From positions 124,001 through 188,000 of the forward strand of contig NZ_JALKBC010000003.1 of assembly GCF_023015865.1 (NCBI RefSeq): 64,000 nucleotides of DNA, written 5' to 3'. The notes below the pieces were generated by a model, which searched no databases, was not told the DNA's origin, and worked only from the letters and a program-made list of their open reading frames with translations. Of the stretch, positions 27,648-29,947 are shown piece after piece. Position 1 is the first letter of the stretch, and each line of letters begins with the position of its first letter. Position numbers and translations under genes: made by a program. Origin of the DNA: Arenibacter sp. F26102. Its GTDB lineage: Bacteria; Bacteroidota; Bacteroidia; Flavobacteriales; Flavobacteriaceae.

Positions 27648-27659
27648 TGTCTCATTAAA

Positions 27660-27974
27660 AAAAAGCAGGTCATAAGCCGGATTCTGTTGACCTTGAATTA
27701 CTTCATGGCCTCCTTATCATTTATCTAGGCCAAAAGTTGCCCTTTGGCTCCAACCGCCTACCCTTCAGCTCGAGCGTGCAGCCCTCAAACACTGATTTAC
27801 ATGACGTTGCACCGTATAGAGTTTACCTGGTTTCACTACAGCATAACCTGTACATACTTTCTGTTGCACTTGTCCTCATCTCACGACGGACGGGCGTTAC
27901 CCGCTATACTGCACTATGGTGTCCGGACTTTCCTCCCCCCACGGAACGCGGGGAGCGATAAGGCGACCTGCTAC
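27660..27974 (-). ncRNA. rnpB: RNase P RNA, bacterial class A
   Basis: Read on the - strand the sequence has the conserved core GAGGAAAGTCCGGAC near the 5' side and ACAGAATCCGGCTTATGA at the 3' end. The P1 helix is formed by AGCAGGTC (27972-27965) and GACCTGCT (27671-27664). A run of eight U residues follows the 3' P1 strand as terminator. It is the catalytic subunit of RNase P, processing tRNA 5' ends. Short + strand open frames across it are not genes. It is convergent with rsmD and divergent from dnaX. Confidence 0.96.
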
Positions 27975-28085: not shown

Positions 28086-28107
28086 CGCTGAATTTAAGTT
28101 GATAGCC

Positions 28108-29184
28108 TTGGAACCTTTTATAGTATCCGCCCGAAAATACAGGCCCCAAACATTTAAGGATGTTGTTGGGCAGCAGGCTATTACCAATACTTTGACCAAT
28201 GCCATAGACAACAATCACCTGGCACAGGCCCTATTGTTTACAGGTCCAAGAGGTGTTGGCAAAACCACTTGTGCCCGAATATTGGCCAAACAAATCAACC
28301 AAGATGGCAGGGCACCTGAAGATGAAGACTTTGCTTTTAATATATTTGAGCTCGATGCTGCGTCCAACAATTCCGTGGATGATATAAGGGAGCTTACCAG
28401 TCAAGTTCGCATACCTCCCCAAGTAGGAAAATATAAGGTATACATTATTGATGAGGTACATATGCTATCCCAGGCTGCCTTTAATGCTTTCTTAAAAACG
28501 CTGGAGGAACCACCTGCACATGCCATTTTTATATTGGCCACGACAGAAAAGCATAAGATTATCCCAACCATCCTGTCCCGTTGCCAGATATTCGATTTTA
28601 AACGTATTACGGTTAAGGATGCCGCGGAATACCTGAAATATATTGCGGAGAACCAAGAAATTGATGCCGAGGACGATGCACTCCATATTATAGCCCAAAA
28701 AGCTGATGGAGCAATGCGCGATGCACTATCCATCTTTGATAGAGTCGTGAGTTACTCCGGTAAAAAACTTACGAGAAAAGCCGTAACGGAGAATTTAAAT
28801 GTTCTGGATTACGACACCTATTTTACGGCTACCGATCTTATTCTAAAGCATGATATTCCTGGCCTATTGATTCTTTTTAATGAAACCTTGGCCAGAGGGT
28901 TCGACGGACACCATTTTATAAGTGGTCTGGCTTCACACTTTAGAGATTTAATGGTATGCCTACACCCATCCACTATTGAACTCTTAGAAGTTGGCGATGA
29001 AGCTAAAAAGCACTATAGCGAACAATCCAAAAAAACTTCAAGTTCCTTTTTACTTACCGCAATTGACATGGCCAATGATTGCGACATTAAGTACAAGACC
29101 AGTAAAAATCAACGACTTCTTGTTGAATTAGCCTTAATGAAATTAGCCTCTATCGATTTTGATGGAGAAAAAAAAAAAGTCTGA
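28108..29184 (+). CDS. dnaX: DNA polymerase III clamp-loader subunit gamma/tau, zero-frame (gamma-like) product
   Basis: A 358-residue AAA+ clamp-loader subunit. The start is a TTG at 28108 (MEPFIVSARKYRP), which fits flavobacterial DnaX better than the TTG nine bases earlier. Walker A TGPRGVGKTT, Walker B YIIDEVHML, sensor 1 ATTEKHKIIPTILSRCQ and sensor 2 ADGAMRDALS are present. The zinc-binding cysteines of E. coli DnaX are absent, as I recall for this family in Flavobacteria. Domain III ends at an 11-A run (29168-29178), after which this frame adds Val and stops. The tau-specific C-terminus continues in the +1 frame from 29159 to 29947. Programmed slippage or an error in the A-run are the two explanations. 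Confidence 0.9.
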   Translation: MEPFIVSARKYRPQTFKDVVGQQAITNTLTNAIDNNHLAQALLFTGPRGVGKTTCARILAKQINQDGRAPEDEDFAFNIFELDAASNNSVDDIRELTSQVRIPPQVGKYKVYIIDEVHMLSQAAFNAFLKTLEEPPAHAIFILATTEKHKIIPTILSRCQIFDFKRITVKDAAEYLKYIAENQEIDAEDDALHIIAQKADGAMRDALSIFDRVVSYSGKKLTRKAVTENLNVLDYDTYFTATDLILKHDIPGLLILFNETLARGFDGHHFISGLASHFRDLMVCLHPSTIELLEVGDEAKKHYSEQSKKTSSSFLLTAIDMANDCDIKYKTSKNQRLLVELALMKLASIDFDGEKKKV

Positions 29185-29947
29185 ATCCCTAGGGAATGGT
29201 CGTAACAAACCAGATTTTATAATTCCAGCATCATTCTATAAAATTAACCGCCCAACTGTGGTGGACAAGGAATTAAAGGCCAAGAAAACAGAAGAAGTTA
29301 TAATTGGCACCACAGCCCATACTACCGAAACCATAAAGGAAGAACAGGGTATTCAGCACCAAACTTCCAACCCAAATACTCCAGATCAGGCTCACCGTAA
29401 GGTGGAGGCGGGCAGCATGGACGTTGCCTTGGAAAAAGATCCAAATCCTACCCCAAGGGCCAAAATAAATCTAAAATCTACCGAAAGGAGGGTTTCAGGT
29501 CTTTCACTTTCCAGCTTAAAGGCAAAAAAAGAACATCAACTAAATAAAAAAGAAGATGTTATTGATGAAAGCAATCTGCCCAAGGCCATATTTACGGAAG
29601 AGGAAATGCAAAAACATTGGGCGGATTTTGTTGATATAATGGACAAAGATGGACGGAAAATTTTAGCATCCAACCTACATTCCGATGTACCCAAGTTAAC
29701 CGAAAATTTTACCATTTGGATAGAATTACCAAATGGCACTATGAAGAAGGAAATTGAGCGGGATAAGTATGATTTAATGGAATACTTAAAATTAAAACTC
29801 AACAATCACTTTATACAATTGCGAATAACGGTCAACGAAGCTACCGCCAAAAAATTTGCTTTTACCCCCGAGGAGAAGTATTTAAAATTACGGGAGAAAA
29901 ATCCGGCCATCGACCTTTTGCGCAAGGAGTTCGATTTAGATATTTAA
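29159..29947 (+). CDS. dnaX: DnaX tau-specific C-terminal region, shifted frame
   Basis: Not an independent gene: this frame joins the preceding one across the A-run. It carries a variable, charged linker (about 130 residues, Lys/Glu/Thr/Pro-rich) and then the conserved C-terminal domain (EEMQKHWADFVDIM... KNPAIDLLRKEFDLDI), which in other species contacts the polymerase and helicase. One A fewer (A10) gives DGEKKKSES, the continuation expected for flavobacterial DnaX. The full tau product would be about 620 residues, normal for the family. Its stop overlaps the 3' end of the convergent TMEM220 gene. Confidence 0.85.
   Translation: MMEKKKKSESLGNGRNKPDFIIPASFYKINRPTVVDKELKAKKTEEVIIGTTAHTTETIKEEQGIQHQTSNPNTPDQAHRKVEAGSMDVALEKDPNPTPRAKINLKSTERRVSGLSLSSLKAKKEHQLNKKEDVIDESNLPKAIFTEEEMQKHWADFVDIMDKDGRKILASNLHSDVPKLTENFTIWIELPNGTMKKEIERDKYDLMEYLKLKLNNHFIQLRITVNEATAKKFAFTPEEKYLKLREKNPAIDLLRKEFDLDI
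29168..29178 (+). other. A11 slippery run in dnaX
   Basis: Eleven consecutive A residues, reading GAA AAA AAA AAA GTC TGA in the zero frame. Loss of one A in the transcript (or gain of two) opens the tau frame. The position at the end of domain III is equivalent to the known dnaX frameshift or slippage sites of E. coli and Thermus thermophilus. Confidence 0.8.

Follow-up and report, generated by a model that had tools for sequence, protein, structure and literature searches.

The dnaX locus of Arenibacter sp. F26102

In the marine bacterium Arenibacter sp. F26102 the dnaX gene is interrupted at a run of eleven A residues (A11), past which the tau part resumes in the +1 frame. The gene, present in a single draft assembly of 5.44 Mb in 84 contigs, lies on a 64-kb stretch of contig NZ_JALKBC010000003.1; this whole stretch is called the window, and its coordinates are used throughout (Table 1). 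A first-pass annotation, made from the letters of the window alone, had placed the break at the run at 29168–29178, and direct reading of the sequence confirms this. It had also described a gamma-like product of 358 residues comprising domains I-III. The listed open reading frame (ORF), which begins at a TTG, spans 28099–29184 and encodes 361 aa; read from position 28108, also an in-frame TTG, it gives 358 aa with the C-terminus EKKKV. The gamma part scores 386 bits against NCBIfam TIGR02397 (cut-off 250) and 125.7 bits against Pfam PF13177 (cut-off 27), and also exceeds the cut-offs of PF22608 and PF12169, in agreement with that description. One detail had to be corrected: the zero frame was said to end two codons past the run, and only one sense codon (GTC) stands between the run and the TGA at 29182–29184.

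The placing of the tau part in the +1 frame up to 29947 was borne out by the second ORF and by model NF011531. The translation of 29159–29944 matches the C-terminal half of this DnaX model (positions 387–613, E 1.5e-22). Against its full-length cut-off of 685 bits the gamma piece scores 618 and the tau piece 80, both below it, as halves should be. The tau part is 93% identical to that of the sister genome G005, and its C-terminus matches domain V of E. coli tau, the alpha-binding fold, weakly. In silico, transcripts with A10 or A13 give an uninterrupted product of 612 or 613 aa containing ...DGEKKKSES..., the junction that had been predicted for the removal of one A. Products of A8, A11 and A14 end in ...KKV and those of A9, A12 and A15 in ...SLNP.

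Table 1. Features at and around the dnaX junction (coordinates of the window).
Feature	Position	Strand	Basis or remark
dnaX zero-frame ORF, gamma-like DnaX (AAA+ domains I-III)	28108..29184	+	TTG start, 358 aa, TGA stop
RNA hairpin, 8 bp, 4-nt loop, proposed slippage stimulator	29148..29167	+	Predicted fold; 3' arm adjoins the A run
Second ORF with the tau part, +1 frame	29159–29947	+	ORF list
A11 slippery run	29168..29178	+	A10 in the other 17 Arenibacter genomes
Tau-specific part, +1 frame, 255 aa and stop	29180..29947	+	NF011531 match; dN/dS
TGA, gamma stop for transcripts with A8, A11, A14	29182..29184	+	In silico
TAG, gamma stop for transcripts with A9, A12, A15	29190..29192	+	In silico
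Folded C-terminal tau part; KH-like domain in its first 82 residues (model residues 138–219)	29591..29944	+	

Run length and frame state among relatives

dnaX was found in 18/18 genomes of the Arenibacter set, F26102 included. The run is A10 in 17 of them and A11 solely in F26102; 13 genes are in frame and five are out of frame. F26102 needs one A fewer to be in frame, and the other four need one nucleotide more. In G006 and G004 the A10 run is followed directly by TCT, the usual G being absent, and in G015 and G011 the run is preceded by AT. On a genus tree calculated from DNA with the junction left out, in which some inner forks are weakly supported, these states require at least three changes between open and split, and at least four if direction is counted. 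The first-pass annotation held that the split would be an artefact if all relatives kept the gene in frame without a long A run; the comparison of run lengths showed the opposite, the run being present in 17/17 other Arenibacter genomes and the gene out of frame in 4/17.

A search of Flavobacteriaceae genomes matched 291 of 299 (E <= 1e-100). We read 226 loci (18 of the genus, 128 of the family and 80 named), of which 211 were distinct and 209 had enough sequence past the run. The 128 family loci consist of 28 new ones from the search and 100 that were fetched, with every split among the matches listed included. The set is biased, in that the closest matches were favoured and all listed splits were taken in, and the split rate is not an estimate. 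Among the 209 genes the run is A10 in 197, A11 in six, A9 and A13 in two each, and A12 and A14 in one each. The gene is open in 190 and out of frame in 19, of which 14 need one nucleotide more and five one fewer; the tree requires no fewer than 17 changes. All five genes that need a nucleotide removed have runs longer than 10, and all 14 that need one added have runs of 9 or 10. G015 and G011 are fully supported sisters with the same out-of-frame state, and G108 and G310 form a second congeneric pair that shares one; independent sequencing errors would not leave relatives with such common states.

A draw from the class Bacteroidia comprised 148 genomes with completeness of 95 or more, F26102 included. 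It gave 145 matches and 144 parsed genes (L434 was incomplete); 141 were judged for frame, the other three lying at contig ends. The run is A10 in 90 genes, A9 in 21, A11 in 14 and A12 in one (A9–A12, 126 of 144). The gene is open in 101 of those judged and split in 40, of which 36 need one nucleotide more and four one fewer. The class tree shows at least 22 changes; it has long branches that meet and this count is rough. All counts of state changes are minima, and the family and class trees were made with FastTree. The run is exactly 10 in 28 of the 40 out-of-frame genes, and longer than 10 in 3/4 of those that need a nucleotide removed and in 5/36 of those that need one added. Splits are confined to genes that bear the run (40/124, vs 0/17 without it; Fisher p 0.003, uncorrected for kinship). 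Five class members that form a clade (L329, L330, L332, L333, L339) have one out-of-frame state in common. The flanking sequence varies strongly among the families of the class, and the run is retained. The 17 judged class members with A4–A8, all in frame, are L355, L359, L360, L368, L374, L378, L384, L388, L390, L395, L397, L413, L416, L424, L430, L433 and L435.

A wider draw from the phylum took 80 genomes, of which 78 matched. The best 30 loci were read, five of the same class and 25 outside it, and a run of nine or more lies near the junction in 13 of these 25. In three loci of another class of the phylum (L462, L463 and L464) dnaX is split at A9 or A10, with 5' folds of -4.2, -2.4 and -4.7, values at which a hairpin is doubtful.

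A predicted RNA hairpin abuts the run

The RNA directly 5' of the run in F26102 is predicted to fold into the hairpin CUCUAUCG-AUUU-UGAUGGAG, the last base of whose 3' arm immediately precedes the first A (gap 0). Its energy is -7.4 kcal/mol alone and -7.7 in a 26-nt fold. The first-pass annotation had overlooked this hairpin, and likewise the stops in the two remaining frames and the spread through the class. In the 209 family genes the mean minimum free energy (MFE) of 20-nt windows is -6.82 when they end at the run, vs -0.17 to -1.25 when they end 8–36 nt earlier; for the class the values are -3.44, vs -1.09 to -1.68 for windows ending 8–60 nt earlier. The 26-nt fold is at or below -4 in 191/209 family genes, with the 3' arm at gap 0 in 160. 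With 24-nt folds, values below -4 were found in 75 of 80 sampled family genes (0–13/80 in eight control windows) and in 79 of 124 class genes (14–25/124 in the controls). The corresponding mean z is -3.27 in the sampled family genes, 74 of them below -2, and -1.16 in the class, with 34/124 below -2 vs 3–8/124 in the eight control windows. None of the other 39 runs of A10 or longer in the F26102 genome is preceded by a 24-nt fold of -4 or lower (0/39).

Synonymous codons were randomised in 60 of the 154 genes that carry GATGGAG before the run, giving a mean z of -2.04 with 52/60 at p <= 0.05. The conserved peptide as the sole source of the hairpin was rejected, the peptide alone giving a mean MFE of -3.37 vs -8.22 observed in these 60 genes. 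In 55 family genes without GATGGAG the mean z is -1.03, with 16 at p <= 0.05 (six and one at two control offsets), and in 120 class genes it is -0.83, with 30 at p <= 0.05 (11, 11 and five at three control offsets). Many genes that lack GATGGAG build a stem from different bases, such as ACTAGCTTCTATTGATTTTGAGGCTG. Across 172 thinned genes, the eight conserved columns nearest the run on its 5' side show the tightest constraint on codon choice anywhere in the gamma part (first among 262 windows), which a hairpin would explain.

Some further observations concern the hairpin and the run. A smaller fold peak occurs in the family in 20-nt windows whose 3' end lies 40 nt short of the run (mean MFE -3.46, about 29108–29127; neighbours about -1.2). 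In L173 (Muricauda sp. CP2A) a different and stronger hairpin, CCTGCCTGCCGGAGGGCAGG, abuts the run (-12.3 in the 26-nt fold). Other ORFs with deep in-frame A10–A11 runs and no 5' hairpin occur in the F26102 genome (L244, L251, L275 and L282), and may serve as natural controls for slippage. An intrinsic terminator was considered and rejected, as the hairpin is succeeded by A and not by U.

Constraint on the run, the stops and tau

In all 209 family genes the run of nine or more A is unbroken and its lysine codons are all AAA; the AAA share at 20 other conserved lysine columns in the family is 0.45–0.89. Both non-tau frames are closed within six codons past the run in 95.7% of the 209 family genes, vs 13.2% at control positions, in 79.8% of 124 class genes (control 10.5%) and in 18/18 Arenibacter genes (control 0.101).

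Ratios of nonsynonymous to synonymous substitution (dN/dS) were calculated for ten pairs, in one of which the tau value was not computable owing to saturated synonymous sites. The tau value for F26102 is 0.091 against its in-frame sister G005 and 0.105 against its in-frame sister G009. It is 0.080 for G015/G011 and 0.127 for G108/G310; two in-frame pairs gave 0.152 and 0.219. Tau is under purifying selection in the split lineages (dN/dS 0.08–0.13). The first-pass annotation had thought a fixed loss of tau unlikely, and the open tau part and these ratios uphold that view. Run length, early stops and selection on tau have been kept while the frame state changed repeatedly.

Neighbouring features

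The dnaX start appears to be the TTG at 28108; the context TTGGAACCTTTT, as read on the reverse strand, is found in eight of nine minus-strand Arenibacter loci compared, and the ninth, L020, has TTGGAGCC instead. Just upstream of dnaX lies an RNase P RNA (RF00010, 211 bits; minus strand, 27658–27974). The small plus-strand ORFs overlying it are probably spurious.

Discussion

The run, the potential for a hairpin, the stops, their conservation, the repeated changes of frame and the selection on tau are properties of the DNA itself. From these we infer slippage, its efficiency, a role of the hairpin and the production of both proteins. We consider the dnaX junction to be, with a probability of roughly 0.8, a programmed RNA-polymerase slippage cassette, assisted by a hairpin, from which gamma and tau would be made whatever the genomic frame. 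When the run is copied, the RNA:DNA hybrid of 9–10 bp would consist almost wholly of rA:dT pairs. The hairpin, encoded just before the run, would then sit in the RNA exit channel, where it would strain the weak hybrid and block backtracking. The RNA may thus slip on the template and give messengers with A9, A10, A11, A12 and so on. Those with A10 or A13 would yield tau by ordinary translation, and the other lengths would stop within a few codons and yield gamma. In F26102, with A11, gamma would be the default product and tau would come from the loss of one A or the gain of two; for its A10 sister the reverse would hold. The genomic frame would be nearly neutral, because each genomic frame would feed all three transcript frames. 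Polymerase slippage explains why offsets of both kinds occur, why the frame is of no consequence, why the run is about as long as the 9–10 bp hybrid and why a stimulator would lie 5' of it.

For the Bacteroidia at large we would extend this, with less assurance though still as the probable course of events, to an ancestral hairpin-programmed slippage cassette in dnaX. Selection would maintain the hairpin, the length of the run and the closure of the two other frames, while the reading frame itself would drift nearly neutrally.

A number of observations weigh against this interpretation. Eighteen of the 144 class genes have shorter runs, without nine consecutive A. Beyond the Flavobacteriaceae the hairpin is weaker and not all genes have it: the 26-nt fold is at or below -4 in 90/124 run-bearing class genes, stems scoring 5 or more (G-U pairs counted half) and ending 0–2 nt before the run occur in 34/124 (control rate 0.077), and in the phylum draw a hairpin was found at 7/18 runs, 5/13 outside the class. 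RNAalifold returned no consensus structure from an alignment of 149 rows, which we think is due to stems that use other bases or registers in some lineages and to gapped rows. Covariation in a fixed register is modest (0.211 vs 0.195 +- 0.010, with 28/500 shuffles as high), and pairs with double changes are no better than in shuffles (260/500). The excess of class splits that need a nucleotide added (36 vs four) suits a polymerase that mostly inserts, and suits -1 ribosomal shifting equally well. At the T. thermophilus run, slippage has been reported mostly as insertions (PMC6260861), and F26102 would need a deletion of one A or an insertion of two to make tau. Finally, 4-mers resembling a Shine-Dalgarno (SD) sequence lie within the 8 nt that immediately precede the run in 177/209 family genes (control 0) and 26/126 class genes (control 6), and these might matter to ribosomes.

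Alternative explanations

The first-pass annotation had left a choice between slippage and a sequencing error. According to the second, the true genome has A10 and the eleventh A is an error of sequencing or assembly in F26102, which we consider unlikely, if still worth taking seriously. A11 is seen in 1/18 Arenibacter genomes only, the assembly is a single draft in 84 contigs, and the sister G005, whose gamma protein is 98% identical, has A10 in frame. On the other hand, A11 with the same offset recurs elsewhere in the family (L122, L235). Of the other 39 runs of A10 or longer in the F26102 genome, nine lie inside an ORF by a simple rule, and frame-by-frame reading found none of the nine to shift a long ORF to another frame. 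An error would be compatible with a slippage cassette: with A10, the hairpin and the early stops would still make up an identical cassette, in which tau occupies the zero frame.

Both forms could also arise from programmed ribosomal frameshifting at the A run, whether of the E. coli kind or in the +1 direction in F26102; we regard this as improbable, and Thermus-like slippage of RNA polymerase fits the evidence better than E. coli-like frameshifting. Class runs start in all three codon positions and a run of 10 holds the slippery heptamer A_AAA_AAA in any register, so the register of the run alone cannot separate polymerase from ribosome. The majority direction of the class splits is that served by -1 shifting, and the enrichment of SD-like 4-mers before the run includes GGAG immediately before it in 160/209 family genes. 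In the place where E. coli has its SD-like element, 8–18 nt upstream, such 4-mers show no excess (0/209 in the family, controls 19 and 2; 9/126 in the class, controls 11 and 8). Bacteroidia ribosomes, moreover, are described as failing at SD recognition (PMC9976891), and F. johnsoniae is cited as a poor shifter at prfB (PMC12421855).

Nor is there anything notable 3' of the run in Arenibacter: the 60-nt fold has a median MFE of -7.7 and a median z of 0.05, with 0/18 below -2, and that of F26102 has -6.0. The E. coli dnaX control gave -18.7 over 45 nt and -22.8 over 60 nt, its z being weak in a G+C-rich context; the z test is insensitive in view of this, and the absolute MFE is the fairer contrast. 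In the class the 3' fold leans slightly, with a median z of -0.43 in 40 split and -0.75 in 84 open genes (control -0.04, 124 genes). In a study with a 70S system, a hairpin placed upstream of the site weakened -1 shifting on A6G, which is contrary to the majority direction here, and stimulated +1 shifting when RF2 was lacking, which would suit F26102 (PMC6321510). Both offsets occur, however, even inside one genus, and sister species would need ribosomes to shift in different directions.

Phase variation at the DNA level, with replication slippage altering the run between cells and switching tau on and off, appears very improbable. In its favour stand the hypermutability of long homopolymers and the frequent changes of frame state on the trees; yet the run is kept at 10 in 197/209 family genes, the out-of-frame state common to the five-member class clade is unlike a reversible switch, and tau is presumably needed for growth. 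An ordinary loss of tau by frameshift mutation, which would leave gamma alone, would fit an ORF that ends at 358 aa but is scarcely credible given a tau part of 255 aa free of stops, dN/dS values in split-holding pairs no higher than in the in-frame pairs, and the recurrence of the split at the same run in many lineages.

Relation to known systems

Two-ORF dnaX genes with a poly-A run were described by Antonov et al. (2013; PMC3711429), with A10 in nine of 17, and transcriptional realignment was proposed. F26102 resembles that cluster in having gamma in the zero frame and tau in another. It differs in that theirs, from 12 genera, have only -1 offsets at the DNA level and the opposite offset occurs here too; also, the run here is shared by in-frame relatives, extends across the class and is abutted on its 5' side by a predicted hairpin. 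In T. thermophilus dnaX, slippage at nine A/T gives gamma and tau from mixed mRNAs (Larsen, 2000; PMC5009743, PMC1088944). Common to both are a late A run on the sense strand and near stops in both other frames. Unlike in F26102, tau is in the zero frame in T. thermophilus, and the available portions of those accounts do not mention a 5' hairpin.

The Roseiflexus IS630 element (Penno, 2015; PMC5009743) has a hairpin directly 5' of its slippage motif, and the motif is about as long as the RNA:DNA hybrid; both features are found here, the hairpin as a prediction. That case concerns a transposase, U5C5 and single-base deletion only, unlike a homopolymer in a cellular replication gene. E. coli dnaX (locus L466) is the same gene and likewise gives two products with common N-terminal domains; it relies on A6G, preceded by AGGGAG and followed by a strong stem, in contrast to A10–A11, a 5' hairpin and, in Arenibacter, an unremarkable 3' side. 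Two-ORF A10 dnaX genes and, in an insertion sequence, hairpin-assisted slippage were thus already known, and it is their combination that looks new. In the literature searched, mostly titles and the openings of abstracts, we found no prior description of a hairpin 5' of the run, of offsets in the other direction, of relatives that carry the cassette in frame or of its extent across the class.

If slippage occurs as proposed, this would be a case of hairpin-assisted slippage in a cellular replication gene, conserved in the family and weaker across the class, vs the insertion-sequence precedent. It would amount to a natural experiment, the encoded frame being left to vary under a constant decoding signal, and would account for a dnaX that looks broken in over a quarter of the genes judged in the class draw (40/141). 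Why both gamma and tau are retained by cells could then be tested in culturable environmental bacteria.

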